Positions 4,617 to 60,008 of a stretch of 64,000 bases of DNA are shown in pieces. Every line of letters starts with the position of its first letter. The stretch's first letter is position 1. The DNA comes from Sphaerisporangium sp. TRM90804. Lineage in GTDB: Bacteria; Actinomycetota; Actinomycetes; Streptosporangiales; Streptosporangiaceae. The position numbers and the translations under genes were made by a program. The notes under the pieces were generated by a model. The model was not told the DNA's origin. It was given only the letters and a program-made list of their open reading frames with translations, and did not search any database. The stretch spans positions 186,001 to 250,000 of the forward strand of contig NZ_JARWAC010000004.1 in the NCBI RefSeq assembly GCF_029846175.1. The letters are read 5' to 3'.

Positions 4617-5133
4617 CTCCACGGACCTGACACGTGGGCAGAGCCAGTGGTCGGCCTTCGATTGGTGGCCCCCCGTCGGCTGGTGGCCCCAACCCGCCCG
4701 TGACCTCGCGCCGCCCGGCGCGGGCACCTCCAGCGCCACCTTCGTGCTCGCGCCGCGCGCCGAGTCGGTGCACGCGGCGCGTAGCTTCGCCTCGGGCAGC
4801 CTCATCGGATGGGGCATGGGCGAGGCCGCCGGCGACATGGAACTGGTGGTGTCCGAGCTCGCCACCAACGCGCTGCGCCACGGCCTGGTGCTCGACCCGA
4901 GGAACCTGCGCAGGAGCGGCGCGGAGCCGATCCGCATGTCGATGATCCGCAGGGGCCCGCTCGCCGCCTGCGTCTTCGCCGACCCGGGCTCGGCGGCCCC
5001 GGTCATGCGCCACCCCCAGCCGCTCGAACCCGGCGGCATGGGCCTGCACATCGTGGAGTCGCTGAGCGTGCGCTGGGGCTGGAACCCGCTCACGCCCTGC
5101 GGCAAGCTCGTCTGGGCCGTCCTGCGCGGCTGA
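4612..5133 (+). CDS. RsbW-like ATP-binding protein (HATPase_c_2)
   Basis: A GHKL-fold anti-sigma-factor-type ATPase of about 173 residues. It shows the N box ELVVSELATNALRHG and, later, the glycine-rich GGMGLHIVESL. Phosphatase or kinase partner domains are absent, as usual for the stand-alone RsbW-like proteins that accompany XRE/DUF397 pairs in actinomycetes. The start is uncertain: GTG 4612 and GTG 4594 are both in frame and neither has a clear ribosome binding site, and the TGCA cluster overlaps the region. It diverges from the XRE gene and presumably shares its control region. Confidence 0.8.
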   Translation: MHSTDLTRGQSQWSAFDWWPPVGWWPQPARDLAPPGAGTSSATFVLAPRAESVHAARSFASGSLIGWGMGEAAGDMELVVSELATNALRHGLVLDPRNLRRSGAEPIRMSMIRRGPLAACVFADPGSAAPVMRHPQPLEPGGMGLHIVESLSVRWGWNPLTPCGKLVWAVLRG

Positions 5134-5546
5134 ACGACCGAAAATCGGGACCGGCCGGGCCAAGTCGCCGGAGACGTCCGGCGTTGGATGCCATACTCGA
5201 ACACAACCGACAGCTCCCATCGTCAGCGAAGAACCTCGGAACCTCCACGCCGGAGGCCCTCCCGGGGAGCCAGGCTCCCCCGGCCGCCGGTGCGCCGAGC
5301 CCCTTCGCCCGCACCTCGCCCACACCAGGGCTCCGCCCACGCGGATGCCGGTGAACGGGCGAATCGTCCCCGGGGCCAGAAGCACCGGCCCCCAGGGCAC
5401 CCCGCCCGTACCCGATCCGCGGAGAAAGATGTGATCTCGAGGCTCACGCATCCGGGTCCGATTCCGCAACGCCGATCCCGGCCGGCGGATGCTCTGCATT
5501 ACGGTGGCCTCTTGGCGACTCCCGCGAGACCTTCGAGAGAGCTGTG
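5134..5546. other. 413-base intergenic gap
   Basis: No convincing gene on either strand. The open frames here are arginine/proline-rich shadows. GAGAGAGCTG just before 5544 can serve as the ribosome binding site of the next gene. I see no further structure. Confidence 0.5.
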
Positions 5547-7928
5547 ATGAACGATCACCTGCTCGCCTGGCTGACGACCCTTGACGAGAACCGGCTCGCG
5601 CGCGTCCTGGCGCGCAGGCCCGACGCCCTCGCCGCGCCCTGGCCGCGCCGGCTCGACACGCTCGCCCGGCGCCTGAGCGACACCTTCGCCGTCATGGAGG
5701 TCATGCGCGCCCTGCCGCTGCCGCCGTTGGAGATCCTGCAGGCCAGCCTGGTCGCCGGCACCCGCGCCACCCCCGAGGGGCTCGCCCGCTTCCTCGGCGT
5801 CACCCAGGCGGAGCTGCTCCCCTGGCTCGACGACCTCTACGACCAGGCCCTCGCCTGGCCGGGGCCCGACGGCCGCGTCCACCTCGCCGAGCCCGTGGCC
5901 CGCTGGTGGACCGCCCCCTGCGGGCTCGGGGAGCCGCTCGCCGCCTACCTGGAGTCCTGGACGCTCAACACCGAGGGCCTGCGCCGCATGAGCCGCGCCC
6001 TCGGCGTGCCCGCCCAGGGCGGCAGGCGCCAGCTCGTCGCGCGCGTCACGGCGGCGCTCGCCGACCCCGACCGGCTCACCGCCATGCTCGGCGAGGCCCC
6101 CGACGGCACGGTCAGCCTGCTCGACGAGTTCGCCTGGGACGGGCCGGTGCGCGGCGTCGACGGCAACCGCTTCGTCGCGCCGGAGACGCCCGAGAAGTGG
6201 GCCGCCGACCGGGGCCTGCTGTTCCGCCCCCAGTGGGACATGGCCGAGATGCCGCGCGAGGTGGCCCTCGCGCTGCGCGGCCCCGACTACCACGCGCCGT
6301 TCACGCCCGAGCCTCCCCAGCTCGGCACGGTGCCGGTCGCCCCCGAGGCCGTCGACCACGCCATGTGCCTGGCCGCGCCGCACGCCGTCGACCGCGCCGC
6401 CGCGCTGCTGGAGAACACCGACAAGACGCCCCTGCCTCTGCTGAAGGCCGGCGGCGTCGGCGTCCGCGAGGTGCGCCGCGTCGCCAAGGAGACCGGCTGC
6501 ACCGAGGAGGAGACCCGCCTGCTGCTGGAGGTCTGCGCGGTGGCCCGGCTGCTCGCCCTGGACGAGACCGCCGGCGGGCTGATCCCCACCAAGCGGTTCG
6601 ACGCCTGGCGGCTGGAGGACGCCCCTTCGCGGCTGCGCGCGCTGGTGTCCGCGTGGTGGCGCATGGAGCGCTCGTCGCTGCGCCGCGCCGCCGCCCGCTA
6701 CCCCACCGTGCTCGGGGACGACCCCGCGGGCGAGACCGTCGCCCGGGTGCGCTGGGCCGTGCTGGCGACCCTGGCCACGCTGCCGCGCGACGCCGCCTTC
6801 GCCAGCATGCCCGAACTCGTCCAGGCCGTGCACTGGCGGGCGCCGCTGCTCGACCGGGAGCTGCTGGCCGAGTGCTGCCCGGCCGTGCTCGCCGAGGCGC
6901 GCCTGCTGGGGCTGGCCTCCGGCGACACCCTGACCGACCTCGGCCGGGCGCTGGCCTCGCTCGGCGCCTCCGCCGCCGGCGACGAGCAGGACGAGACCGT
7001 GCCCGAGGTCGAGCGCGACCCCCGCCTCGTCGAGTGCTCGGTGCACGCCCTCGCCGGCGCCCAGCGCACCGCCCTGTTCGGCGCCGACCTGACGGCCGTG
7101 GTCACCGGTCCGCCCGCCGCCGAGCTGTCGAGCCTGCTCGACCGCGCCGCCGACCGCGAGTCGCGCGGGGCCGCCTCGGTGTGGCGGTTCTCCCCGGCGA
7201 GCGTGCGGCGCGCGCTGGACGCCGGCCACTCGGCCGAATCACTGCTGGAGGAGCTGTCGGCGGCCGGCACGGTGCCGCAGCCGCTCACGTACCTGATCAG
7301 GGACGTCGCCCGCCGCCACGGCGAGGTCACGGTCACCACCGTCGGGTGCATCATCCAGGGCTCCGACCCGGCGCTGCTCGCCGAGATCGCCGCCCACCGC
7401 CGTCTCGCCCGGCTCGGCCTGCGCCTGCTGGCCCCCACCGTGCTCGCGGGCGCCGCCCCGGCCGACCGCACCCTGGCCGCGCTCCGCGAGGCCGGGTACG
7501 CCCCCGTGCCGGTGGACGACACCGGGGAGATCGCGGTGCGGCGCGAGCCGCAGGGCGGCCGGCTGATCCTGCTCCCGGGCGGCCGCGTCGCCGAGCTGGA
7601 GGAGGCTCCGCCCTCCATCTTCGACCCGCCGCCCGACCCGCACGAGCACGCCCGCCGCCTGGTGGAGACCCGCGCAGAGGAGCGCCAGGCCGGGCAGACC
7701 TGGGCGGTGATCGGCCGCCTGGCCACCCGCCTGCCCACCGCCCAGCAGTCCCTGCTGGGCTTCGTCGTCGACCGCGGCGTCCGCGCACTGATCACCCTGT
7801 CCGACGGCCTGACCGCCACCATCAGCCACGGCGAGCTGCGCCGCGGCGTGCTCGACGCGTGGTGCGAGGAGGCGGGCGACTACCTGGAGTTCCCGCTTGC
7901 CGAGATCTCCTCGGTGACCAGCGGGTAG
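5547..7928 (+). CDS. helicase-associated (XPB/Ssl2-like) domain protein
   Basis: A large soluble protein of 793 residues, starting MNDHLLAWLTTLDENRLARVLARRPD. It is an actinobacterial helicase-C-terminal-associated protein, in which an N-terminal winged-helix-rich region is followed by an XPB/Ssl2-like domain around residues 560-720 (LTYLIRDVARRHGEV, then a VGCIIQGSDPALLAEI stretch). No Walker A or helicase motor motifs are present, so it is unlikely to unwind DNA by itself. It may act as an accessory to an XPB-type helicase, which is an inference. ATG 5547 is preferred; GTG 5544 is in frame immediately upstream. Confidence 0.8.
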   Translation: MNDHLLAWLTTLDENRLARVLARRPDALAAPWPRRLDTLARRLSDTFAVMEVMRALPLPPLEILQASLVAGTRATPEGLARFLGVTQAELLPWLDDLYDQALAWPGPDGRVHLAEPVARWWTAPCGLGEPLAAYLESWTLNTEGLRRMSRALGVPAQGGRRQLVARVTAALADPDRLTAMLGEAPDGTVSLLDEFAWDGPVRGVDGNRFVAPETPEKWAADRGLLFRPQWDMAEMPREVALALRGPDYHAPFTPEPPQLGTVPVAPEAVDHAMCLAAPHAVDRAAALLENTDKTPLPLLKAGGVGVREVRRVAKETGCTEEETRLLLEVCAVARLLALDETAGGLIPTKRFDAWRLEDAPSRLRALVSAWWRMERSSLRRAAARYPTVLGDDPAGETVARVRWAVLATLATLPRDAAFASMPELVQAVHWRAPLLDRELLAECCPAVLAEARLLGLASGDTLTDLGRALASLGASAAGDEQDETVPEVERDPRLVECSVHALAGAQRTALFGADLTAVVTGPPAAELSSLLDRAADRESRGAASVWRFSPASVRRALDAGHSAESLLEELSAAGTVPQPLTYLIRDVARRHGEVTVTTVGCIIQGSDPALLAEIAAHRRLARLGLRLLAPTVLAGAAPADRTLAALREAGYAPVPVDDTGEIAVRREPQGGRLILLPGGRVAELEEAPPSIFDPPPDPHEHARRLVETRAEERQAGQTWAVIGRLATRLPTAQQSLLGFVVDRGVRALITLSDGLTATISHGELRRGVLDAWCEEAGDYLEFPLAEISSVTSG

Positions 7929-22172: not shown

Positions 22173-22212
22173 GGGGCGGTAGCTCAGCCGGTCAGAGCAG
22201 CGGACTCATAAT
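22173..22212 (+). tRNA. 5' half of tRNA-Met(CAU), interrupted; candidate attL
   Basis: Bases 22173-22212 match an elongator tRNA-Met from position 1 to 39: acceptor strand GGGGCGG, D stem GCTC/GAGC, anticodon loop CTCATAA with CAT at 22207-22209. From position 40 the expected complement of the anticodon stem is lost (ACTTTTCG), and no T-arm or 3' acceptor follows. Integrases often cross over in tRNA anticodon loops, so this is the likely left junction of the element. The 3' half is not in the window. Confidence 0.75.
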
Positions 22213-22610: not shown

Positions 22611-22817
22611 TTAGCGGAGCTTGCCGTCTACCACGCCGCCGATGAACGCCTGCCACTCGTTGGCAGTGAAGCGCAGCACCGGGCTGTCGTGAATCTTGCT
22701 GTCGCGGACACCTCGCCCGCCGCCGGGGAGAGCTGCTACCTCGACGCAGTTGCTCCCCTCGCTGCTGCTGTAGGTGCTCTTCCGCCAAGTGAGTGCTTCT
22801 GGCTGGGTAAACGCCAT
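22611..22817 (-). CDS. DUF397 domain protein (element copy)
   Basis: A 68-residue DUF397 protein with WRKSTYSSSEGSNCVEV and VRDSKIHDSPVLRFT. It follows the DUF5753 XRE gene after 12 bases, so the two are cotranscribed, and a hairpin ends the unit. It parallels the chromosomal pair at 3.3-4.5 kb but is clearly diverged from it, so it is not a recent duplication. Confidence 0.9.
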   Translation of the reverse strand: MAFTQPEALTWRKSTYSSSEGSNCVEVAALPGGGRGVRDSKIHDSPVLRFTANEWQAFIGGVVDGKLR

Positions 22818-22829
22818 GTCGTCCTCGCC

Positions 22830-23675
22830 TTACAGGTCGTTGGCAAGTTGCCGGAGATGTGACACCGAGGCCTCCTCGCTGAGCGCCAAGGCGCACACGT
22901 GGTCAAACTTGACGTTATAGCGGATGACCTCCTGTGGCTTCTCCAGGAACACATCCCCCGTGCCTGTTTCTAGATAGACCAGTGTCGCGTCTTCGGTGCT
23001 CGCGTACTCATAGATCACGAACGGCCCAGCCATGGCCGCATGAGCGCCGGCAGCGTCCGGGACCACCTGGATGGCGATGTTGGGGCGAGAGCACATCGCG
23101 ACGATGTGTTCGAGCTGGTGACGCATCACTTCTACGCCGCCGACCTGCTTGCGCAAAGCTGCTTCGTCTATGACCGCCCACAGGTGAGGGGGGTCTTCGC
23201 GTTCGAGGATCTCCTGGCGGGCCAGGCGCGCAGCGACGTGACGGTCGATGACCGCCTGATCGAGCACCTGTCCCCCGCGGAACACCGCGGCGGCGTAGTC
23301 CGCAGTCTGGAGGAGGCCCGGGATGAGGAGCGCCTCGAACATGTGGATCTGGGCGGCCGTGGCCTCGAACTCGGCGACGCTCCCTGGACTGAGAACGTCT
23401 TGATAGTCCACCCACCAGCCGCGCTGGCGTGAGTCTCTCGCTAGGGCGAGAAGCTCTTCGCGTCGCGCTTCATCGGTGACCCCGTAGAGATCAAGAAGGT
23501 CCCGGATGTCGCGGACATCAGGGCGCTTCCACTCGTTTCGTTCGATGCGAGTGACCTTGCTTGGCGCCCATTCGAGCTGGTGGGCGGCCTGCTCGGCGGT
23601 GAGTTTGGCATCTACGCGAAGGGCACGCAGTTCAGCGGAGAGGCGTCTGCGTTTCACTGTGGGGCTGTTGCTCAT
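22830..23675 (-). CDS. XRE-family regulator with DUF5753 (element copy)
   Basis: A 281-residue regulator. The helix-turn-helix (LRALRVDAKLTAEQAAHQL, then PSKVTRIERNEWKRPDV) occupies about residues 12-60. The DUF5753 domain follows with IPGLLQTADYAAAVF and LWAVIDEAALRKQVGG. ATG 23675 has AGGAAGGCGAGCA upstream. As the first gene after the broken tRNA apart from its DUF397 partner, it may govern element maintenance or the neighbouring GntR/ATPase/radical-SAM genes; that role is inferred. Confidence 0.9.
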   Translation of the reverse strand: MSNSPTVKRRRLSAELRALRVDAKLTAEQAAHQLEWAPSKVTRIERNEWKRPDVRDIRDLLDLYGVTDEARREELLALARDSRQRGWWVDYQDVLSPGSVAEFEATAAQIHMFEALLIPGLLQTADYAAAVFRGGQVLDQAVIDRHVAARLARQEILEREDPPHLWAVIDEAALRKQVGGVEVMRHQLEHIVAMCSRPNIAIQVVPDAAGAHAAMAGPFVIYEYASTEDATLVYLETGTGDVFLEKPQEVIRYNVKFDHVCALALSEEASVSHLRQLANDL

Positions 23676-23941: not shown

Positions 23942-24193
23942 TCATTCAGCGCTCGGCCACCTCTCCCGAGGGAGGACATAGGTTCCTCGGCCGGAGATCG
24001 GATTCAGAAAGCCCTCTTCGGCCAGCACCTTCACCACTTTGCGCACCGTCCCGAGCGAGACTCCAAGTTCCTGTTGGAGATGGATCAAGCTTGGGATCGG
24101 CATGCGCTCTTTGTATGCACCCTCTTCGATCCGTTCGCGCAGAATCTCGTAAACCTGCTCCCAAACCCTGCGGTCGGCGTCGAAATTGATCAT
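23942..24193 (-). CDS. small GntR-type winged-helix regulator
   Basis: An 83-residue protein that is only a GntR DNA-binding domain: VWEQVYEILRERIEEGAY, LIHLQQELGVSLGTVRKVVKVL and GRGTYVLPRERW. No ligand-binding domain follows. ATG 24193 was chosen because the domain begins there; the open frame upstream to 24448 lacks coding character. It is divergent from the ATPase gene across a region with tandem repeats and probably represses that promoter. Confidence 0.85.
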   Translation of the reverse strand: MINFDADRRVWEQVYEILRERIEEGAYKERMPIPSLIHLQQELGVSLGTVRKVVKVLAEEGFLNPISGRGTYVLPRERWPSAE

Positions 24194-24389: not shown

Positions 24390-24806
24390 ATGCATCCACC
24401 GTTAGAAGCCTGCTGGGACCTTCCCCAGGACGTCGCGGCTCTCAGCAAGGTCCGCGAGATCGTTCACAGCACTCTCCACGCCTGGGGACTCGGCGGGGTG
24501 GCCGACGACATTGTGATCGTCGTCAGCGAGCTGTGTGCCAACGCCATGAGCTACGGGCAGCCGCCCATCACGCTCACCCTGCACTTGGTCGATCAGCACA
24601 TCGACGGCGAAGTGACCGACGGGGGCGCCGTCTTCGTGCCGCCGCAACGCTCGGCGCCGGATGACCCGTCACACCTGCTGGTGACCCTCTCAGAGCGCGG
24701 CCGTGGCCTTGTCATGGTCTCCAGCCTGACCACTGCCTGGGGGTTCAGCCCCGCACCCCGGGGCGGGAAGACGGTGTGGTTCACCAGCTCACTCGGAAGG
24801 CACTGA
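24390..24806 (+). CDS. RsbW-like ATP-binding protein (element copy)
   Basis: A 138-residue HATPase_c_2 protein with the N box IVIVVSELCANAMSYG and the later glycine-rich SERGRGLVMVSSL. It resembles anti-sigma-factor kinases of the RsbW type. The radical SAM gene begins 38 bases downstream on the same strand, so the two, plus the methyltransferase gene, probably form one transcript controlled by the divergent GntR. The start ATG 24390 follows CTCCGGAGACCCC. Confidence 0.88.
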   Translation: MHPPLEACWDLPQDVAALSKVREIVHSTLHAWGLGGVADDIVIVVSELCANAMSYGQPPITLTLHLVDQHIDGEVTDGGAVFVPPQRSAPDDPSHLLVTLSERGRGLVMVSSLTTAWGFSPAPRGGKTVWFTSSLGRH

Positions 24807-24844
24807 CCCCGCACAACCCACCACAACACCAGAGCGAGGGAACG

Positions 24845-25759
24845 ATGGTCACGACCGACTTCTTATGGCTGGAGATCACCGGCAAGTGCCAACTCTCCTG
24901 CACGCACTGCTACGCCGACTCCGGCCCGTCAGGCACCCACGGCACGATGCGGTTACCGGACTGGGTGGACGCGATCGACCAGGCCGCGGCCATGGGTACT
25001 CGGATGGTGCAGTTCATCGGCGGCGAGCCGATCCTGCACCCCGACCTTCCCGCGCTGGTGAGTCACGCGGTCGACGCGGATCTGCGGGTCGAGGTGTACA
25101 GCAACCTCGTTCACGTGCCGGACTCCATGTGGGAGGTGTTCCGGCACCCGCAGGTGCAGTTGGCCACCTCGTTCTACACGCTCGACCCCGCCGTGCACGC
25201 GCAAATCACTGGCCGCAACACGATGACCCGGACCCTGTCCAACATCCGCAAAGCCCGGTCTTACGAGATTCCGCTGCGTGTCGGCCTGATCGATGTGGTG
25301 GACGGGCAGCGCATCGAGGACGCCAAGGCGGTCCTCTCCCAGTTCGGGGTCACCGATGTCGGCGTCGACCGGATGCGGCTCCTCGGCCGGCCCGCGCGAA
25401 CCGCGTGCGACGCCTCGGAGTTGTGCGGTAGGTGCGGGGACGGGGTCGCGGCGATCCTCCCGGACGGCACTGTCACCCCGTGCCCTCTGAGCCGGTGGCT
25501 GTCGGCTGGTCGACTCCCCACTACGCCCCTGGCTGAGCTGGCGGCCCGCGCCCGGGACATCGCCGAGCGGGAGATCATGCCTGCTCTCCCCCACGCGTGC
25601 CGGCCGCCATGCGAACCGCAGTGCAACCCCGGGTGCGACCCGAGCATGACTTCCCCGGGGGGTGGCGACGGGTGTCGGCCTGCGCAAAACTGCAATCCGA
25701 ACCAGCAGTGCAAGCCGCAGGTCAACCCGTGCAAGCCCGACGTTTCCTGTCGGCCGTAA
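24845..25759 (+). CDS. radical SAM protein with SPASM-like cysteines and a nine-fold CxP tail
   Basis: A 304-residue radical S-adenosylmethionine enzyme. Cys15, Cys19 and Cys22 in CQLSCTHC bind the catalytic [4Fe-4S] cluster, and GGEP at residues 59-62 is the SAM-binding motif. Cys188, Cys194, Cys197 and Cys213 in a SPASM-like segment (ELCGRCGDG, TVTPCP) probably hold a second cluster. From residue 252 the tail carries nine cysteines (252, 256, 260, 264, 277, 283, 289, 296, 302), every one in a Cys-x-Pro triplet. SPASM proteins usually modify peptides. The substrate is unknown, and no obvious precursor gene is adjacent. ATG 24845 follows GAGGGA. The methyltransferase gene starts ten bases after the stop. 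Confidence 0.88.
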   Translation: MVTTDFLWLEITGKCQLSCTHCYADSGPSGTHGTMRLPDWVDAIDQAAAMGTRMVQFIGGEPILHPDLPALVSHAVDADLRVEVYSNLVHVPDSMWEVFRHPQVQLATSFYTLDPAVHAQITGRNTMTRTLSNIRKARSYEIPLRVGLIDVVDGQRIEDAKAVLSQFGVTDVGVDRMRLLGRPARTACDASELCGRCGDGVAAILPDGTVTPCPLSRWLSAGRLPTTPLAELAARARDIAEREIMPALPHACRPPCEPQCNPGCDPSMTSPGGGDGCRPAQNCNPNQQCKPQVNPCKPDVSCRP

Positions 25760-25769
25760 GGGGCGCGTC

Positions 25770-26933
25770 ATGTCCACGCGAACGCATGCCCGCGAGCATG
25801 AGCATGTAGCGGCGCTGTCGGCCTATCTGATCGGCGCCGGAGTGCTGGACCCGTCCGAGCCGGACAGCCGCACGTGGCTGGCGGGGCTGCGAGCCGTCCC
25901 TCGGCATCACTTCGTCCCGGCGCGGGCATGGGCCCAACCGCAGGACGACCGAGGCGAGCACCTGATCGACCGCGTCCTCGACCCCGCGGCGTGGTGGGAC
26001 GCCGTCTACTCCAACACGGCGATCATCACCCAGCGCGGAGACGGCGACGCAGACATCACCGACACCGACGCGTTGCCGTCGTCCTCGCTGTCGTGCCCCC
26101 ACGTGGCGATGGAAATGCTCCGGCTGCTGGATGTCGCCGACCACCATAAGTTGCTGGAGATCGGCACCGGCACCGGATGGACGTCCGCGATGCTGAGCTG
26201 GCGCCTCGGCGATGACCAGGTGGTCACGGTCGAGGTTGACCCCGACGTCGCCGCCGCGGCAGGGAAGGCTCTGGCTGTCGCGGGCCACTGCCCGGCGATC
26301 GTCGTAGGAGACGGCGTTGTCGGCCACCCCGAGCGGGCGCCCTACGACCGGGTACACGTCACTTGCGGGGTCCAGGAGCTGCCGTACGCGTGGGTGGAGC
26401 AGACCCGCCCCGGCGGGGTCATCGTGGCCCCGTGGACCGCCGGCCACGGCCAGTGGGCCGAGCTGGTACGTCTGGACGTGCTGGACGACGGCACCGCCGC
26501 CGGCCGGTTCCGCGGGGGCGCGACGTTCATGATGATGCGCTCCCAAAGGACGCAGCGGACGTGGCCCGCCTACGAGGACGACGGCTCCACGTCGATCTCC
26601 CGGTTTGACCCGCGCGCCCTTTCCGAATCGTGGGGCCGGGGCTTCGGTCTCCATCTGGCGGCCACTGCGCCGCACGTTGTGGTGACCAGCTCCGGGTGGG
26701 AGGCGTTCGACGGCGACCCGGTGTGGGTGATGCGGCTCCGCGGGGGCGACGCGTGGGCCATCGCTTGCGTCTACCCCGACCGAGCCGAGATCGAAGTCAC
26801 CCAAGGCGGCGCCACGCGCCTATGGGACGACCTGCACGACACGTACATGGGGTGGCTACGCGCAGGCCAGCCTGGATCGGATCGGTACATGCTGACCGTC
26901 ACCCCTGACGGTCAGCGCGTTCACCGACGCTGA
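25770..26933 (+). CDS. PIMT-like SAM methyltransferase
   Basis: A 387-residue protein related to protein-L-isoaspartate O-methyltransferase. Its core has SCPHVAMEMLRLL, motif I LLEIGTGTGW (residues 128-137), VVTVEVDPD and the product-loop segment YDRVHVTCGVQELP. An extra C-terminal domain of about 130 residues follows. PIMT homologs of this size are common partners in actinomycete peptide-maturation loci such as the FxLD and ATP-grasp systems. Coupling to the radical SAM gene (ten-base gap) suggests both act on the same product. The start ATG 25770 has only a weak GGGGCGCGTC upstream. Confidence 0.87.
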   Translation: MSTRTHAREHEHVAALSAYLIGAGVLDPSEPDSRTWLAGLRAVPRHHFVPARAWAQPQDDRGEHLIDRVLDPAAWWDAVYSNTAIITQRGDGDADITDTDALPSSSLSCPHVAMEMLRLLDVADHHKLLEIGTGTGWTSAMLSWRLGDDQVVTVEVDPDVAAAAGKALAVAGHCPAIVVGDGVVGHPERAPYDRVHVTCGVQELPYAWVEQTRPGGVIVAPWTAGHGQWAELVRLDVLDDGTAAGRFRGGATFMMMRSQRTQRTWPAYEDDGSTSISRFDPRALSESWGRGFGLHLAATAPHVVVTSSGWEAFDGDPVWVMRLRGGDAWAIACVYPDRAEIEVTQGGATRLWDDLHDTYMGWLRAGQPGSDRYMLTVTPDGQRVHRR

Positions 26934-31244: not shown

Positions 31245-32179
31245 CCGGGATGGAAGTCGTCGCGATGCTCGCCGCCGGCGGGGTCGTGTACGCCGTGACC
31301 CGCCACACCGAGAAGGGGAAAAGGATCCGCGCTACCCGCTCGGGAAAGCGGGCCGGGCGTCTTCCTCGCAAATCTCGGCTGGTCGTGATGTACAACAACA
31401 CCGGCGCGAAGAAGCTGGAATCCGACGACGCAGCGACCGCAGCCGCCGAGTTGGCCGGCCGGGTAATCGGCCGGGGTAGCAGCAGGGCGTGGCGTGCGGC
31501 ACGGACGACGAGTGAGCGCCGGTGGGCCCAGCGGGAAACCGTGCGCCCGGCGGAGACCGTGCTGGACAAGTGGCGCACCGTCCACCACTCCCGGCCCCGC
31601 CGGACTAGGCCGCGTCGGCGCAAGCTCTCGGACTGGTTCAAGCCCGCCAAAGACGAATCCGCGCCGCCACCTCAGGAAACACCCCCACCGGACCAGCCGC
31701 GTGAACCGGTCCCGCCGCGTGAACGGCCGCGCGCAATCCCCGACCCCGACCCGGCGCCGCAGCGCCCGATCCCCAAGTTCGCAGGAGACCCCGAAATGTC
31801 CACCCCCGCCTTTCCCGACGCCCCGCCGCTAGTCGCGGCCCCGCCTGACTGGGCGGCGCTCATCGCCCGGGTGACCGACTTCGAACCGGAGAACGACACC
31901 GCCTTGATGCGATGGATGGCCAGCGAAGCCGCAGGTGTCGTCGCCTACGCCGAGGCCCTGGAGCAGGCCCGGGCGAACTGCGTCGCCGTGATCGGACTGG
32001 ATCCCTCGTCGGTCAGCGGCATCGGCGTGTACAGCGAGCACATGTCGGAGGCGGCCGACCGTGTGACGGGCGCTCTGGCCCGGTTCAAGGCCGTGTACCG
32101 CGAGGTGCTCGAACTCGCCTCTTCTGGCGTGGTGATGCCCTACAGGGGCCGCTGGATGACCGGCGGCGGCGAGGAATGA
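31241..32179 (+). CDS. transfer-operon protein with GRWxTGxE C terminus
   Basis: A 312-residue protein. An N-terminal hydrophobic stretch (EVVAMLAAGGVVYAV) is followed by a very basic, proline-rich region (about 60-190) and a helical C-terminal domain ending MPYRGRWMTGGGEE. It starts at GTG 31241 inside the previous stop and its own stop overlaps the translocase ATG, so it is stoichiometrically linked to the translocase. The last motif recurs in the protein at 34488-35033. The function is unknown; a membrane adaptor for the translocase is an inference. Confidence 0.75.
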   Translation: MTGMEVVAMLAAGGVVYAVTRHTEKGKRIRATRSGKRAGRLPRKSRLVVMYNNTGAKKLESDDAATAAAELAGRVIGRGSSRAWRAARTTSERRWAQRETVRPAETVLDKWRTVHHSRPRRTRPRRRKLSDWFKPAKDESAPPPQETPPPDQPREPVPPRERPRAIPDPDPAPQRPIPKFAGDPEMSTPAFPDAPPLVAAPPDWAALIARVTDFEPENDTALMRWMASEAAGVVAYAEALEQARANCVAVIGLDPSSVSGIGVYSEHMSEAADRVTGALARFKAVYREVLELASSGVVMPYRGRWMTGGGEE

Positions 32180-35033: not shown

Positions 35034-35289
35034 CTTAGCCGACCTGTTCGCCGTCGCTGATCACCTGGGCTGGATGCGGTGGTCGTCCTGCGGTGAGACC
35101 GACCCGGACCTCTTTCACCCGGAGGACAGCAATGCCGCCCAGGCCGAGCAGGCGAAGTCCGTGTGTCGGCGGTGCCCGGTCCGGGACGAGTGCTTGGACT
35201 ATGCCTTGGGCAACCGTGAGGAGTTCGGCGTCTGGGGCGGACTCAGCCCGGTCGAGCGGCGCCGACTCCAACTCGGGGCAGTGGCGTGA
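35020..35289 (+). CDS. WhiB-family iron-sulfur regulator
   Basis: An 89-residue WhiB-like protein. Four cluster-binding cysteines are present (Cys24, and Cys49-x2-Cys52-x5-Cys58 in VCRRCPVRDEC), followed by the family's turn GVWGGLSPVERR and a basic end. WhiB proteins bind a [4Fe-4S] cluster and act with the principal sigma factor. Phage and element copies often interfere with host WhiB control. ATG 35020 follows GAGAGGAAACCC. The integrase gene overlaps its stop. Confidence 0.92.
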   Translation: MSSNDLADLFAVADHLGWMRWSSCGETDPDLFHPEDSNAAQAEQAKSVCRRCPVRDECLDYALGNREEFGVWGGLSPVERRRLQLGAVA

Positions 35290-36287
35290 TGCCTACAGTC
35301 CTGCCAGGCGAGGTCGTCGGGTCCGTGCTCGAAGCTCCGCGGCCCGGGCGCCGGGAGCCTTTGTGGGAGCAGCAGTTGCGGGGCGAGGTGATGCTACTTG
35401 GGCCGTCGGTTCAGCAGATGGTGTGGGCGTGGCTGCTTCATCAGCGTTCTGAGCACACACGGGCAGCGTACGGGCGTGACCTTCGGGAGTGGCTGGCGTT
35501 CTGCAACGAGCGTGACCTTGATCCGCTCATGGTGACCCGCGGCCACGGTGACGCCTACCGAGGATGGTTGCAGCAGGTTCACGGACTGGCCGCCCGGTCG
35601 GCGGCTCGGAAGCTCGCCGCGGTGTCGTCCTGGTACTCCTACTTGGTTGAGGAGTCGGTGATTGACGCGAACCGCTTCAAGGGGGCGCGCCGGCCGGAGA
35701 CCAACCGCAAGGAGTCCAAGACGGTCGGGTTGACCGAGTCAGAGGCCCGTGCGGTGATCCGGGCCGCCGCCTTGGATCACGGGCGGGAGCGTCTTCGCAC
35801 GGCCGCGATCATCGCGCTCATGATCTCGGTTGGTCCGCGAGTCGCCGAAGTGGTCGATCTTCAGGTGAGTTCCCTCGGCTACGAGCGCGGCATGCGCACG
35901 GTGCGGATCGTCGGCAAGGGCGAGAAGATCCGGACCCGGCAGTTGCCGTCGGAGGCCGGCGTGGCGATCGACGCTTACCTCGCGGTCCGCGGTAGGACTC
36001 CGGGGCCGTTGTTTGTCACGGCGACAGGTAAGGCGATGCATACCCGTGACATCGCGCATGTCGTGAAGCGGGTTGCCCGGCAGGCTGGGCTGTTCATGCC
36101 GGAACGGGTGACGCCGCACACGCTTCGGCATACTTTCGCCACTCTGGCCGAGGAGCGTGGTTCGTCCGTCCGGCAGATACAAGACGCTCTTGGTCACGCT
36201 TCGGCGGATACGACCGAGATTTACCTGCACGCACCGAAGCGACTAGAAAATGACCCTTCCGTCCAGGTTGCGAGGGTCCTCTGGTGA
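35289..36287 (+). CDS. int: tyrosine recombinase (integrase)
   Basis: A 332-residue XerC/D-like tyrosine recombinase. An N-terminal SAM-like core-binding domain (about 35-125, EHTRAAYGRDLREWL) precedes the catalytic domain. The full set is present: Arg184 (GPRVAE), Lys210 (GKGEK), His277-x2-Arg280 (HTLRHTF), His303 (LGH) and Tyr312 (EIYLH). The start is ATG 35289 or the overlapping GTG 35286, coupled to whiB. A copy of the tRNA anticodon-loop core lies 18 bases past the stop codon, where attP would be expected. It is presumably the enzyme that inserted the element. Confidence 0.93.
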   Translation: MPTVLPGEVVGSVLEAPRPGRREPLWEQQLRGEVMLLGPSVQQMVWAWLLHQRSEHTRAAYGRDLREWLAFCNERDLDPLMVTRGHGDAYRGWLQQVHGLAARSAARKLAAVSSWYSYLVEESVIDANRFKGARRPETNRKESKTVGLTESEARAVIRAAALDHGRERLRTAAIIALMISVGPRVAEVVDLQVSSLGYERGMRTVRIVGKGEKIRTRQLPSEAGVAIDAYLAVRGRTPGPLFVTATGKAMHTRDIAHVVKRVARQAGLFMPERVTPHTLRHTFATLAEERGSSVRQIQDALGHASADTTEIYLHAPKRLENDPSVQVARVLW

Positions 36288-56182: not shown

Positions 56183-57138
56183 CAGGAGACGTAGCCCGCG
56201 GAGGTGTACTTCACGAACGCCTCGACGTCGCCCACGACGAAGCCGTAGAACGCCTCCGCCAGGAGCAGCACAAGGTTCTCCTGGAAGGCGCTGTGCACTC
56301 CGCCCTCCTCGTCCACGTACGTGGCTTCCTTGGAGATGCGGACGGTGATGTCCATACCGACGCCGTACGCCGCCTGCGACCAGTCGCCGCCGATCGCCCG
56401 CAGACCCGTGTCGGAGCTGGTGGACTGCCGGCGGTGCTTGCCCGACACCGCACGCGAGTACGCCAGGTCCTCACCGATCAGGGTTCCGGCCGAAGCGGCA
56501 CCGGTGCCGGCCGTGGTGGTGTCCACGAAGATCGGGCGGCCGTTGGTGTCGGTGGCCAGGAGAAGCTGAGGCTTCAGCCGCGGGTCCGCGGCGAAACCGG
56601 TGAAGTCCCAGTCGTCGTCGACGACCTCCGCCATGCCGTTGACCAGGTCGGCGTACACGCCGCCGGCGGAGTCCGCGGCGGTGCCGAGGGCCTGCCACTT
56701 GGTGGTCTCGATCAGGTGGTCCGGGAACGGGCCGGACGCTCCCTTCATCGACTTGCCGTGGATGGCGGCGTAGTCGAAGGCCCGCGCGAACGCGGTCGGC
56801 AGGTCGTTCTGAAGCTGCGTCCACAGGCCGCCCGCGTTGGTCATGACGACCTCTTCAGCGACCGGGATGAGAACAGCGAGCTTCTTGGCGGTCATCTGCT
56901 TGACGTCGATACCGCCGCTGGACAGCGGCTTACGGGCGCCCTGCCCCACCCAGTCAGCGGTGGGAACGTCCATCGGGACCGGGATGGACGTGGTGGCGTC
57001 GATGGCCAGCGGGGCACGCCGCGCGAGCGACATGATCGCGGACTGCTCCACCGACTTCTCGAAGATCGGGGCGGTGATGGTCCGCGGCAGCAGTGCATCG
57101 TTGACATCGGAAAGCAGCAGAGGGTCAGTGGCGACCAT
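56182..57138 (-). CDS. major capsid protein (HK97 fold)
   Basis: A 318-residue capsid protein. ITAPIFEKSVEQSAIMSLARR is the usual N-arm, followed by IPVPMDVPTADWVGQGARKP (E-loop region) and a P/A-domain end YVDEEGGVHSAFQENLV. It resembles the family of phage major capsid proteins found next to a scaffold. ATG 57138 lies 13 bases after the scaffold stop, and the glycosyltransferase start overlaps its own stop. Confidence 0.9.
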   Translation of the reverse strand: MVATDPLLLSDVNDALLPRTITAPIFEKSVEQSAIMSLARRAPLAIDATTSIPVPMDVPTADWVGQGARKPLSSGGIDVKQMTAKKLAVLIPVAEEVVMTNAGGLWTQLQNDLPTAFARAFDYAAIHGKSMKGASGPFPDHLIETTKWQALGTAADSAGGVYADLVNGMAEVVDDDWDFTGFAADPRLKPQLLLATDTNGRPIFVDTTTAGTGAASAGTLIGEDLAYSRAVSGKHRRQSTSSDTGLRAIGGDWSQAAYGVGMDITVRISKEATYVDEEGGVHSAFQENLVLLLAEAFYGFVVGDVEAFVKYTSAGYVS

Positions 57139-57892: not shown

Positions 57893-58609
57893 TTAGCGGC
57901 CTTCGACCGCGCGGCGGAACGCCTTCAACTTGTTCCGCTCGCCCTTGGTGGAGTCCTCGTACATGCGGCGCCACTCGGCGACATCGGCCGGCGGCTCCCA
58001 CGTCTGCCCCTCGAACACCGGGGCGGCCGTACAGGAGCACGAGTTGTGAGCTTGGAAGTCAGCGGTCTGCTCGGACTGGTAGACAGCCCCGCGTATTGCC
58101 AGCATTCGGCAGAAGGCGCAGGCGTTCGGCGCGGCCACGCGGAACCATCCGATGGCCTGCGGGTCTTCATCGACCGCGGCGAGGACAGCCTCGCGGCCGA
58201 CGTCCGCCACGATCTTCTGAGCCGCGCCGCCCGCCTTGTCTTCAGCTACGCGTAGCCGCTCCTCGATGGGCGCAGGAGCCTGCTGTTCGGGGATCCACAG
58301 GTCTTTGGTGGCCCACCGCAGACTGGCCTCGACCTTCTCCCGTGGAGGCGCGTCAGGCATGGGGAACGTGAACCGGCCACCGACCCGCGCGAGGTCACGT
58401 TCCTCGTCGTAGTAGTCGCCCGCCAGGGTCGCCGACATGGCCGCGTACTCGCCGAGCAGCAGCTCAACAGCCGCGATCCACTGAGGGATCGTCGTCGCGA
58501 ATGCGCCGAGCCGGATGATCGCCCACAGTTCGGCGAATTCACGCAGCAGCTCAGCGAGCAACCCGCGCTGCGCGGCCTGCTGCTCAGCGGCTCTACTCGC
58601 CTGCGACAC
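57893..58609 (-). CDS. MuF-like minor head protein
   Basis: A 238-residue protein of the phage head morphogenesis/minor head family. The C-terminal half has CAFCRMLAIRGAVY and FQAHNSCSCTAAPVF, a conserved Cys/His cluster of MuF/VG15-like proteins. The gene overlaps the portal stop by 17 bases, the usual portal-MuF order. GTG 58609 is the start. It may be injected with the DNA; no toxin domain is fused. Confidence 0.85.
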   Translation of the reverse strand: MSQASRAAEQQAAQRGLLAELLREFAELWAIIRLGAFATTIPQWIAAVELLLGEYAAMSATLAGDYYDEERDLARVGGRFTFPMPDAPPREKVEASLRWATKDLWIPEQQAPAPIEERLRVAEDKAGGAAQKIVADVGREAVLAAVDEDPQAIGWFRVAAPNACAFCRMLAIRGAVYQSEQTADFQAHNSCSCTAAPVFEGQTWEPPADVAEWRRMYEDSTKGERNKLKAFRRAVEGR

Positions 58610-60008
58610 CGGCAGCCTCTGCCGCCCGAGCGGCGTTTATCCGCTGCCCAACCTGCGTGAGAAGCTGCCGTCCCTGCGACCGTTTCTGATCCGCCTGGAC
58701 ACGTCGACGCTGGCCGTCGGAAAGGCCGACCAGTTCCATGGTCACCTCCGAGCCTGCGGGGAGGACGCCCGCTTGCACGAGCTTGACCGCGGCGTCGGTC
58801 TGCGCGGCCACCGTCGGAGTCGCGGGGTTGCGCCACACGCATTCGATGCGCTTGGCCCGGTCAGGCAGGTCGCCCGTCTTGATGAGCAGGGCGAGCCGCA
58901 TGGCGTTGGCCCATGGCCCGTCCAGCAGTCGCTGTTTCCGCTCGGCCCGCTTCACAAGCTGCGCCTCGGTGGAGCGGATCGCGTCGGCTGACGCGGGGTT
59001 GTCGGTGGTGTAGCCCAGGTAGTGCGGCGGCAGACCAAGCTGCGTTGCCATGATTCGGGCGTACAGGTCAACGATCCGGGTGTACGCGGACGGGTCGTAG
59101 GCGGCGAACTGGCCGACCTGCGGGATCTCGCCGTCCTCGTCCCGCTCCAGCGCAAGGACGCGGCCGATGTACGTCTCCCACGCCGACTTCGCGTTGCCTT
59201 CCGCGTCTTGGAACGCGCTTTCGGATGCGCCGAGGATGTACCGCTGCGGCGCGGCGTAGAACTCGCGCGCCACCTCCATCCCCAGCAGCGTCCGGCACGC
59301 CGCATCGGTGATCGACATCACAGCTTGCGTGATCTCCGAGTGCCCGATCCGGTCCGCAGTGCGCTGCCGGTTCGCCATCCGGACCACCGGGACGATTCCC
59401 AGGTCGTGGTCATCGCGGTCGATCACGACCCAGCCGGTGTTGGTCTGCACGACGTGGATCGAGGAGTTCGGCAGGTACAACACCGCGGCGTCCTCGTCAT
59501 CGAGCTTGTACACCCGAAGCGCCGCGGTAGTGACCCGCGCCCGCGCGTCGTAGAAGATCGTCATGTCGAGCGGCGATTCCACGCTGATCAGCGGCGGGCA
59601 GTCATCGCCCCCGCAGTCACCCGACCCGACTGCGATGTACGCCCGGCCGTAGATCAGGGCGTCCAGATGCCCGAGCTGCGACTCATGGGCAAGCTCGTTG
59701 GCCTCCCACAGCTCCATCAGCTCATCCGACGAGTCCGGTTCGCCCTTGTACCGCAGCGCCTCGATATCCAGGCGCTGCTCCAAGGCGTCCACGCCGATCT
59801 GCGGCCACCCGATGACGGTGTGCAGGCCGCGGAGCTGCGGCGGAATCGAAATCCCCAGGTCCCGGACAAGCTGCTCGCCGTTGTAGTACGCGTCCCGCAA
59901 TTCCAGCGGGTACCGCCGCGCCATCAACTCCGCGCGCAACGCGTTCAGGACATTGGTTTCGTCATCCGACAGCGCGAGAAGCGGCAGCTCGGGGATCACG
60001 GCAGCCAA
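58593..60008 (-). CDS. portal protein (SPP1 gp6-like)
   Basis: A 471-residue portal. LRDAYYNGEQLVRDLGISIPP near the N terminus, then LDALIYGRAYIAVGSG and the wing/stem pattern IVDLYARIMATQLGLPPHYLGY, match the SPP1-type family. It forms the dodecameric DNA gate of the capsid and docks the terminase. The start is TTG 60008, with GGGGG five bases upstream. It comes ten bases after the large terminase stop. Confidence 0.92.
   Translation of the reverse strand: MAAVIPELPLLALSDDETNVLNALRAELMARRYPLELRDAYYNGEQLVRDLGISIPPQLRGLHTVIGWPQIGVDALEQRLDIEALRYKGEPDSSDELMELWEANELAHESQLGHLDALIYGRAYIAVGSGDCGGDDCPPLISVESPLDMTIFYDARARVTTAALRVYKLDDEDAAVLYLPNSSIHVVQTNTGWVVIDRDDHDLGIVPVVRMANRQRTADRIGHSEITQAVMSITDAACRTLLGMEVAREFYAAPQRYILGASESAFQDAEGNAKSAWETYIGRVLALERDEDGEIPQVGQFAAYDPSAYTRIVDLYARIMATQLGLPPHYLGYTTDNPASADAIRSTEAQLVKRAERKQRLLDGPWANAMRLALLIKTGDLPDRAKRIECVWRNPATPTVAAQTDAAVKLVQAGVLPAGSEVTMELVGLSDGQRRRVQADQKRSQGRQLLTQVGQRINAARAAEAAGVAGE

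Follow-up and report, generated by a model that had tools for sequence, protein, structure and literature searches.

The locus studied here raises the question of what part is played by the cysteine-rich tail of a radical SAM enzyme (rSAM) whose gene is followed, ten bases past its stop codon, by the ATG at 25770 of a PIMT-like methyltransferase (MT). Both genes lie in the window—that is, the whole stretch of 64,000 nucleotides that was analysed (Table 1)—where the rSAM frame, as read from the sequence, extends from an ATG at 24845 to a stop at 25759. The first-pass annotation had described the cluster motif C15/C19/C22, a SPASM-like set of cysteines, a tail whose nine cysteines all lie in Cys-x-Pro (CxP) triplets, and the ten-base spacing, all of which held; and had offered three roles for that tail: the binding of metal or of extra Fe-S clusters, the docking of a partner, or service as a built-in substrate. 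The last of the three has the best support, since the tail varies together with the enzyme encoded downstream and no recurrent separate precursor was found. We favor, at a probability of roughly 0.56, the reading that the rSAM would be a peptide-modifying enzyme of the SkfB/SPASM-Twitch type, with its substrate fused at its own C-terminus.

Table 1. Coordinates of the features discussed, numbered from the first nucleotide of the window.
Feature	Position	Strand	Evidence
DUF397 protein, presumably BldB-like	22611..22817	-	
XRE-DUF5753 regulator	22830..23675	-	
Short GntR-type regulator, divergent, local neighbour	23942..24193	-	
HATPase_c_2 protein, regulatory neighbour	24390..24806	+	HATPase_c_2 51 (Pfam)
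rSAM enzyme, 304 aa; Twitch-like auxiliary site, CxP tail at the C-terminus	24845..25759	+	
rSAM cluster motif C15-x3-C19-x2-C22	24887..24910	+	sequence; conservation
Auxiliary-site Cys C194, C197, C213, hairpin of Twitch-like domain	25424..25483	+	
CxP tail, C252 to end, nine CxP, proposed fused substrate	25598..25756	+	
Asp275-Gly276-Cys277 (DGC) in tail, GGGDGC, proposed MT target	25667..25675	+	
PIMT-like (PAMT-type) O-methyltransferase (MT) with C-terminal domain, 387 aa	25770..26933	+	

The radical SAM core and its auxiliary site

The window rSAM matched the Pfam Radical_SAM model at 67.4 bits and the SPASM model at 20.3 bits, the latter slightly below the cut-off of 21.5. In a structure alignment, which took in 114 of the 123 eligible rows, the SAM-cluster cysteines C15, C19, and C22 were kept in 112, 113, and 114 of the rows, respectively, and C194, C197, and C213—the only other conserved cysteines of the core—in 113, 114, and 114. 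C194 and C197 are separated by two residues and followed by C213, the tail then beginning at C252, whose column holds a Cys in 109 of the 114 rows. The first tail Cys stands after the helix 229–247, at 34 to 61 residues (median 42) downstream of C213, in which position C252 is probably the last ligand of the auxiliary cluster.

The closest solved fold was that of SkfB (Foldseek E 1.4e-15; TM 0.66 by query length), which protein was also the best sequence match in the PDB. The marks of SPASM/Twitch enzymes, a CxxxCxxC motif and a radical SAM barrel, were both present, and the layout of auxiliary cysteines in that group, around a hairpin and after helix a2', appears to be matched by C194/C197, C213, and C252. 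A Twitch-type auxiliary site is shared with SkfB and the SPASM/Twitch sactisynthases, as described in PMC6231123; unlike SkfB, however, the window rSAM has no N-terminal RRE domain, and its substrate is proposed to be fused at the C-terminus. We found no match to the RRE/PqqD domain, characteristic of sactipeptide synthases, in the rSAM; and no N-terminal extra domain appeared in the predicted structure, whose first strand begins at residue 6.

If, as one possibility, the tail were a cofactor scaffold, its CxP cysteines would ligate the auxiliary cluster, and perhaps an extra Fe-S cluster or other metal, with the tail itself remaining unmodified. The distance between C213 and the first tail Cys is near the Twitch layout CX33CXC of SkfB (PMC6231123), and both the presence of only three other conserved core cysteines beyond the SAM cluster and the constancy of the C252 column are in keeping with that role; which role would nevertheless account for C252 and not for tails that hold from 1 to 13 CxP at varied spacing (a single one in 3 of 130 relatives), and would leave the MT-linked Asp, the Ser motif linked to one of the kinases, and the internal repeats described below unexplained. 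In addition, the tail beyond residue 254 is predicted to be disordered, the pLDDT being below 50 for residues 255–257 and 259–304, though with the caveat that AlphaFold leaves Fe-S clusters unmodelled. A scaffold in this exclusive sense is, in our estimation, unlikely; but since the first CxP is probably an Fe-S ligand, metal binding and a built-in substrate may both hold.

Tail sequence and the downstream partner gene

The nine tail cysteines of the window rSAM (252, 256, 260, 264, 277, 283, 289, 296, and 302) exemplify a family trait: 665 of the 677 tail cysteines across 130 family members, the window rSAM included, stand in CxP, as do 216 of 218 in a held-out set of 55 Streptomyces proteins. 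The tail sequence is hypervariable between genera; in seven Lentzea, the one genus analysed for selection, pN/pS was 0.127 for the tail versus 0.185 for the core, and the tail is there under purifying selection as a protein. Internal near-repeats occur in the tails of L141, L159, L163, and L200, and were seen by eye in those of the viral contigs L270 and L275, such repeated tails looking like multi-core precursors. The first-pass annotation had named the absence of the tail in close relatives as grounds for refutation, which absence we encountered once, in a tailless and partnerless rSAM copy of 263 aa in two Mycobacterium abscessus prophage records; nearly all of the sampled members otherwise carry a tail.

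The sulfatase motif is C/S-x-P-x-R, to which the CxP triplets bear a similarity, and anaerobic sulfatase-maturating enzymes (anSME) figure among the structural matches from rank 27 onward. The rSAM might on that account be supposed to make formylglycine at the CxP cysteines; yet anSME is weak by sequence match, and an Arg stands at +4 in just 25 of 881 CxP. With C-x-P-x-R not being enriched, we rejected the sulfatase-maturating reading, which has very little probability.

The recurrent partner is the gene directly downstream of the rSAM, which encodes either a PIMT-like MT, an APH-fold kinase with catalytic-type residues kept (kinase A), or an APH-like kinase (kinase B) that in 39 of its 51 loci is accompanied by an AAA ATPase gene. 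Partners were sought in an interval reaching 1.5 kb upstream and 2.5 kb downstream of the end of the rSAM—on the same strand for the MT and kinase A, on either strand for kinase B and the AAA ATPase—and were labelled by a match scoring above 120 to a profile built on the first set. The window MT matched Pfam PCMT (PF01135) at 89.6 bits (cut-off 20.3) and TIGR04188 nearly end to end (profile positions 13–363 of 363) at 281.9 bits, which score, like the 265.7 bits of the MT at L032, does not reach the curated cut-off of 380. The TIGR04188 model is that of the ATP-grasp peptide maturase system methyltransferase. The part aligned by canonical PIMTs is limited to about residues 98–259 of the window MT, which carries an extra C-terminal domain. 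The motif WxxxGxP, which PMC13001092 places in the C-terminal domain of lasso, grasp, and imiditide PIMTs, appears in the window MT as WLRAGQP (residues 362–368) and occurs in 12 of the 53 family MTs (shuffled sequences, 9%); residue by residue, the Gly is found in 53 of them, the Trp in 43, and the Pro in 13.

Might a stand-alone rSAM and a protein-repair PIMT be neighbours by chance, the tail being low-complexity drift? Hypervariability between genera and predicted disorder would suit such a reading, to which we give almost no credence, as it is contradicted by the counts: the MT lies downstream of the rSAM in 60 of 138 loci and in 32 of 57 held-out loci, the frames lying no more than 150 bases apart in all but three loci, where the rSAM is broken; CxP is retained in 98% of the tail cysteines; the Lentzea tails are under selection; and the MT fits the RiPP-type PIMT model almost throughout.

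As judged from the sequences, the tail tracks the type of downstream partner, in a correlation where both follow descent. The motif D[GSNT], chosen after inspection of the first set, was present in 53 of 56 tails with an MT, 7 of 47 with kinase B, 7 of 13 with kinase A, and 1 of 14 with no partner (at a stricter cut, 52 of 56 for the MT versus 4 of 47 for kinase B). In the held-out loci, for which the prediction had been fixed beforehand, all 31 MT tails contained the motif, as did 8 of 12 partnerless tails, that set holding a single kinase B locus and so no contrast between MT and kinase B; in the viral contigs, scored by eye, the motif occurred in 10 of 10 MT tails and 0 of 3 kinase B tails. 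Its position is likewise nonrandom, D[GSNT] preceding a CxP by at most two residues in 78 of 87 MT tails (mean 34.3 and maximum 47 in 300 shuffles), and the Asp so placed is aspartimide-prone; L118, with an adjoining MT, has GGGGGC and no Asp. Among 24 kinase A tails, S-x-C-x-P occurred near the end in 18 (shuffled mean 2.2, maximum 7) and D[GSNT] in 14, while in kinase B tails neither D[GSNT] before CxP nor a late S-x-C-x-P was enriched over shuffles, and a clear target residue was not apparent.

When the tail was excluded from tree building, the partner changed at least six times, with the MT in several places, and partner and tail both followed the resulting tree. Within a mostly kinase B clade (95*), L180_MT has a tail with GDGD; the neighbour closest to it, L127_KinB, which joins it at an unstarred 81, has a tail without D; in clade f19, where MT and kinase B are closely mixed, two of the three kinase B members (L090 and L095) carry D[GSNT]. 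Only four independent pairs of MT versus kinase B stand on well-supported branches, the motif being concordant with the partner in an average of 2.2 of them and discordant in 0.0, numbers at which a sign test cannot reach significance. Kinase A forms one clade, so that its Ser motif may represent a single event.

To look for a free CxP precursor, the loci were scanned in six frames for peptides dense in CxP, and no recurring family emerged, the 86 loose matches being by eye out-of-frame noise and broken rSAM copies; nor, among the clustered neighbour genes (called approximately), did any small gene apart from DUF397 recur beside the pair. If, alternatively, the tail were a docking or targeting tail recruiting the MT or kinase, which would then act on another target, tail type would be expected to track partner type as well, and the want of recurrent downstream product genes would be congruent. 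The covarying residue, however, is the very one that the partner would be expected to attack—Asp in the case of a PIMT, Ser in that of a kinase—and lies near a CxP; docking would not require Cys; and in several RiPP classes the PIMT homologues take substrates that are cyclic or form a hairpin (PMC13001092). We hold docking to be rather improbable.

In the fused-substrate reading that we prefer, C252 would probably complete the Twitch-like auxiliary Fe-S site, and the flexible remainder of the tail may fold back into the barrel, with the rSAM modifying it at or beside the CxP cysteines; the likeliest chemistry would be a sactionine-like crosslink from Cys-S to carbon that closes small loops. 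The enzyme encoded next door would then modify a residue within a loop: the PIMT-like MT might methylate an Asp that precedes a CxP, which in the window rSAM is D275 of GGGDGC, and so yield aspartimide or isoAsp, and in the relatives the APH-fold kinase could act on the conserved Ser or elsewhere in the tail. Somewhat more tentatively, we propose a new RiPP-like class of the Actinobacteria, in which the tail of the rSAM maturase would be the precursor, making the class a radical counterpart of borosins, and the second enzymes—the proposed aspartimide-forming methyltransferase and APH-fold kinases—would be swappable and matched to tail types.

Comparison with known peptide-modifying systems

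Borosins consist of a methyltransferase fused to the precursor. The likeness to the present case is one of layout alone, the modifying enzyme and the proposed substrate being on one chain; in place of the alpha-N-methyltransferase fusion by which borosins are defined, the enzyme here is an rSAM of different fold and chemistry.

Lee et al. 2023 (Adv Sci, PMC10787088) described 249 two-gene rSAM-PAMT clusters with no neighbouring precursor or substrate gene. Those clusters, like the window, comprise an adjacent rSAM and a PAMT with a C-terminal domain, and very probably include the family of the window rSAM; our proposal differs in taking the rSAM's own CxP tail as the substrate and in adding kinase partners. 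If correct, the tail would be the substrate missing from the 249 pairs, and a direct test of the question would take two genes and a mass spectrometer. The same text gives TxDGC as the core motif in most lanthipeptide precursors that accompany PAMTs, which motif resembles the GGGDGC of the window tail. The PIMTs of pamtides/imiditides, lanthipeptides, lasso peptides, and graspetides share with the window MT a PIMT homologue plus extra C-terminal domain, and their target Asp lies within a ring or hairpin in several classes (PMC13001092). In pamtides and imiditides the precursor gene is separate; at the present loci none was found next to the PAMT, and an rSAM with a fused tail is present instead. 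Searches of the open PMC library brought up no publication on rSAM enzymes with CxP tails; within that literature, a substrate fused to its enzyme would be a layout new to the radical SAM RiPP enzymes, and the alternative partners would be naturally occurring variants in which to study how second tailoring enzymes and substrates are matched.

Surrounding genes and distribution of the family

Neighbour genes were called by GC3, and are thus approximate, with clusters counted when present in at least six loci. The recurrent ones were the MT, kinase A, kinase B, the AAA ATPase, several XRE types, DUF397, HATPase, and a few rarer types; an ABC-type ATPase cluster (10 loci) and a GntR-type cluster (13 loci) occurred in mixed places and strands. 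None of the clustered genes was a constant exporter or protease, so there is no support for a released product. The first-pass annotation had grouped an ATPase with the rSAM and MT under a GntR-controlled divergent promoter and suggested a check of their co-occurrence with the tail. The tail and the MT do recur with the rSAM, and a divergent GntR gene is indeed present; but by tblastn the window HATPase has a counterpart upstream in only 19 of 178 other loci and the short GntR gene in 3 of 178. We consequently rejected both as constant functional parts, the rSAM and MT being the real recurrent set and the other two local neighbours.

Further upstream, the DUF397 protein, which we take to be BldB-like, lies beside an XRE-DUF5753 regulator that would be WhiJ-like, and the HATPase_c_2 protein, small and of anti-sigma type, would be AbaA-like; these would correspond to the types found at the BldB/WhiJ/AbaA loci of Streptomyces, the names being applied here by likeness. 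In that literature (PMC10294661, PMC4255298), AbaA-like proteins figure among the possible antisigma factors, and the words "radical" and "methyltransferase" are absent from the BldB paper.

That the pair lies within a mobile element, as already suggested in the first pass, finds support in the integrase and phage head genes that share the stretch with the rSAM. Neither direct repeats nor a missing tRNA half that would mark the ends was found within the next 84 kb, and one exact pattern for that half, searched genome-wide, gave no match.

A scan of genome contigs with the single rSAM protein retrieved no relative; with an alignment, 383 matches were obtained, of which 80 were kept. Nine duplicate loci were dropped before counting, as were, for want of an intact core by pattern, L063, L087, L091, L092, L096, L113, L140 (whose sequence nonetheless reads intact), and L176; from the held-out set, three duplicates were dropped together with L230 and L255, which were broken or had an odd length. 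In one genus, Streptomyces, 56 of 295 genomes contained family matches, as did 30 of 149 relatives, the window genome being counted among the 30. The family is carried by chromosomes, plasmids, and prophages. Approximately 127 plasmid records contained a match (25 Streptomyces, 2 Amycolatopsis, 2 Embleya, and many others with distant rSAMs), of which six were sampled; and the analysis took in the 21 close members (L258–L278) of the 32 viral loci, with the 11 distant ones (L279–L289) left out. Among the former, the tails of L259 and L260 were identical to those of L141 and L139, respectively.

Distribution of the family and conservation of the tail

We detected the rSAM, a radical SAM protein whose C-terminal tail starts at C252 and holds nine Cys-x-Pro (CxP) units, in 30 of the 149 relatives searched and, at the level of the class, in at least 32 of 394 genomes (the window's own genome counted in both instances), the latter figure being a lower bound since five candidates were scored per genome. 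Matches were present in 56 of the 295 genomes of a single genus, Streptomyces; on Streptomyces, Embleya, and Amycolatopsis plasmids; and on 21 viral contigs. We assembled 138 non-redundant loci, in 130 of which the pattern used recognized both core and tail as intact. The CxP tail, singled out by the first-pass annotation in this one protein, proved to be a family trait: 665 of the 677 tail cysteines of the 130 intact members lie in CxP units, which number from 1 to 13 per tail and whose middle residue is almost unconstrained. The tail is hypervariable when genera are compared; among the seven Lentzea copies, purifying selection on it is at least as strong as on the core (pN/pS 0.127 vs. 0.185). 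Tailless relatives, which that annotation had envisaged, do exist to a limited extent: nearly all the other members are tailed, and a tailless orphan rSAM occurs in two Mycobacterium abscessus prophage records (prophi68-1 and prophiGD04-1; locus L290, 2071-2862), where it has no annotated adjacent methyltransferase or kinase and lies near the integrase and a weak 2OG-oxygenase match. A near-invariant tail, of the CTPPQFLPMCGPCGPCVPSVGHCDP type, characterizes a subgroup from mostly Streptomyces genomes (L111, L112, L231-L235, L237, L239, L242, and L263), which loci lack any of the usual partner genes.

Partner genes and tail motifs

Downstream of the rSAM lay the PIMT-like methyltransferase (MT) in 60 of the 138 loci, the APH-like kinase B in 51—39 of them accompanied, on one strand or the other, by a short AAA ATPase—kinase A in 13, and none of the three in 14, one of which lies at a contig end. 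A representative kinase B (L031) matched PF01636. The Pfam and NCBIfam searches with a representative kinase A (L085) gave no match; its model (mean pLDDT 92) matched spectinomycin and aminoglycoside phosphotransferases, and the catalytic-type residues K48, E64, D158, N163, and D175 are kept in 13 or 12 of the 13 sequences. Clustering of the neighbor genes, for which the gene calls were approximate, yielded no further constant partner and no prominent protease cluster, and an ABC-type ATPase cluster in 10 loci with mixed positions and strands. Upstream, regulators of several types (XRE, DUF397, HATPase) are recurrent, none of them being constant by this clustering; the ATPase and the GntR gene noted earlier are local neighbors of the pair and not constant members of the set. 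In L134, the rSAM has a long tail with multiple CxP units and is followed (5123-5701) by a 2OG-Fe(II) oxygenase (PF13640, 28.2 bits), possibly another partner type acting on the tail.

Tail type and partner type covary. The dipeptides D[GSNT], which are aspartimide-prone, were present in 53/56 MT tails of the first set, 7/47 kinase B, 7/13 kinase A, and 1/14 partnerless tails. In a hold-out whose prediction was recorded beforehand (60 Streptomyces loci, 57 of them new and 55 with an intact tail), D[GSNT] occurred in all 31 MT tails, and S-x-C-x-P in 9/11 kinase A vs. 6/31 MT tails; the only kinase B locus was without D[GSNT] (0/1), so that the hold-out offers no MT-vs.-kinase B contrast, and 8 of 12 partnerless tails contained the dipeptide, partly after the last CxP. 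In the viral contigs, whose tails we read by eye, D[GSNT] was found in 10/10 MT and 0/3 kinase B tails, and S-x-C-x-P in both kinase A tails. When the CxP units were fixed and the free residues permuted within each tail (300 shuffles), a D[GSNT] at most two residues before a CxP, observed in 78/87 MT tails, had a shuffled mean of 34.3 and a maximum of 47, while S-x-C-x-P near the tail end, observed in 18/24 kinase A tails, had a mean of 2.2 and a maximum of 7; kinase B tails were enriched in neither arrangement. Among the 100 D[GSNT]-holding inter-Cys loops of the MT tails, 81 have a Cys-to-Cys length of 7 to 9 residues.

Over all rows, the association between motif and partner has a Fisher p of about 1e-19, which value ignores descent. 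On the tree of the rSAM core minus tail (130 rows), kinase A forms a single clade, so that the Ser motif of these tails may have arisen once. MT and kinase B loci are intermingled on it, and the tree requires at least six switches between the three partner types. L180, an MT locus within a mostly kinase B clade, has GDGD in its tail, and its nearest neighbor, the kinase B locus L127 (joined at 81, not starred), has a tail without Asp. In the f19 clade, the MT members (L104, L109, and L114) have acidic tails, and D[GSNT] is present in two of the three kinase B tails (L090 and L095), a counter-example to the match. The independent-pair test on supported branches comprised four pairs, in which the motif agreed in 2.2 on average and opposed in 0.0; with four pairs only, significance is out of the test's reach. 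A tail that merely recruited the partner enzyme, which would then act on another target, predicts this same covariation, and we judge that alternative quite improbable; the support for our reading of the tail as a substrate is comparative throughout.

Predicted fold and proposed mechanism

AlphaFold2, with an alignment of 114 sequences, predicted a confident core (pLDDT of 90-98 in ten-residue blocks as far as residue 240) followed by a tail that is disordered (under 50 for residues 255-257 and 259-304). Among solved folds, the sactisynthase SkfB comes closest (E 1.4e-15, TM 0.66 by query length, 22% identity), ahead of SuiB, BlsE, DesII, EpeE, CteB, PqqE, and anSME; it is likewise the best sequence match. 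As described in PMC6231123, the SkfB Twitch cluster has as ligands one Cys that follows the hairpin and a CxC past helix a2', another conserved Cys preceding the hairpin; in our rSAM, C194/C197 and C213 lie at the hairpin, and C252, the cysteine of the first CxP, comes after helix 229-247. Because this position parallels the SkfB Twitch cysteines, C252 is probably an auxiliary-cluster ligand, and the rest of the tail would begin beside that site. An unmodified tail whose CxP cysteines hold an auxiliary cluster or other metal would account well for the first CxP, and we regard that explanation of the tail as unlikely. The same paper places RRE-type peptide-binding domains in SkfB, SuiB, and CteB, unlike which the rSAM starts straight with the barrel; with a fused substrate such a domain would be unnecessary. 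In CteB, moreover, one ligand of the auxiliary cluster comes from a substrate Cys (PMC6231123), a precedent for a tail Cys reaching the auxiliary site here.

If the tail is indeed the substrate, the rSAM would, judging from its fold class, place a radical on a residue of the tail and link that residue to a CxP sulfur, or else modify the CxP unit in some other way. Through this modification, or through the tail's own loop, an Asp would then be presented to the MT. According to PMC13001092, a cyclic or hairpin substrate is required by most RiPP PIMTs; the imiditide PIMTs, by that account and by PMC11285071, accept linear peptides. The MT would next form an aspartimide or isoAsp at D275 (the Asp of the tail's DGC), for which step the kinase loci would substitute a phosphotransfer. 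Since exporter and protease are not constant neighbors, a product retained inside the cell or on the enzyme is just as likely as one secreted as a peptide. The family very probably covers the 249 two-gene rSAM and PAMT clusters reported as having no identifiable neighboring precursor or substrate gene (Lee et al., 2023; PMC10787088). A 2026 review devoted to aspartimide RiPPs uses neither "radical" nor "rSAM" in its main text, and our searches of the open-access literature yielded no account of the CxP tail.

The locus and the surrounding mobile element

The window spans positions 186001-250000 of its contig in a genome of 8.3 Mb, where rSAM and MT are single-copy at the search thresholds applied. 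As had been noted, ten bases separate the two genes; a purine-rich stretch, read in the sequence, precedes each, and both could be ribosome-binding sites. An identical rSAM is encoded by L070 and L187 (the same-genus genome G002 and a Sphaerisporangium perillae record). Upstream lie an HATPase_c_2 gene and, divergently, an XRE-DUF5753 gene, a DUF397 gene, and a short gene of the GntR type. The DUF397, XRE, and HATPase domains we take to be the counterparts of the names BldB, WhiJ, and AbaA. These window genes resemble the gene sets of the BldB/WhiJ/AbaA loci in PMC10294661 and PMC4255298, the latter including AbaA-like proteins among possible antisigma factors; the presence of such genes upstream suggests a developmental or stress-type control.

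Features of the rSAM-MT locus and of the mobile element
Feature	Coordinates	Strand	Remarks
tRNA-Met(CAT)-like 5' half	22173-22212		broken at anticodon; by eye, no ARAGORN call
rSAM	24845-25759		304 aa
MT	25770-26933		387 aa
tRNA-Ala	31865-31954		ARAGORN call, among long open frames
Tyrosine integrase	35286-36287		
Major head protein	56185-57138	minus	tailed-phage head module
Portal	58596-60008	minus	tailed-phage head module
Terminase	60022-61758	minus	tailed-phage head module

The tRNA-Met(CAT)-like half is probably the left junction of a mobile element; no matching 3' half turned up in the 84 kb that follow or in a genome-wide search with a single exact pattern. The tRNA-Ala call is probably spurious. 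Third-position GC at 35286-61758 is mostly below that of the chromosome on the left side. On a Streptomyces plasmid, a gene annotated as the cyclophane-containing RiPP N-acetyltransferase HaaN lies near an rSAM-MT pair (L034, 5422-5895).
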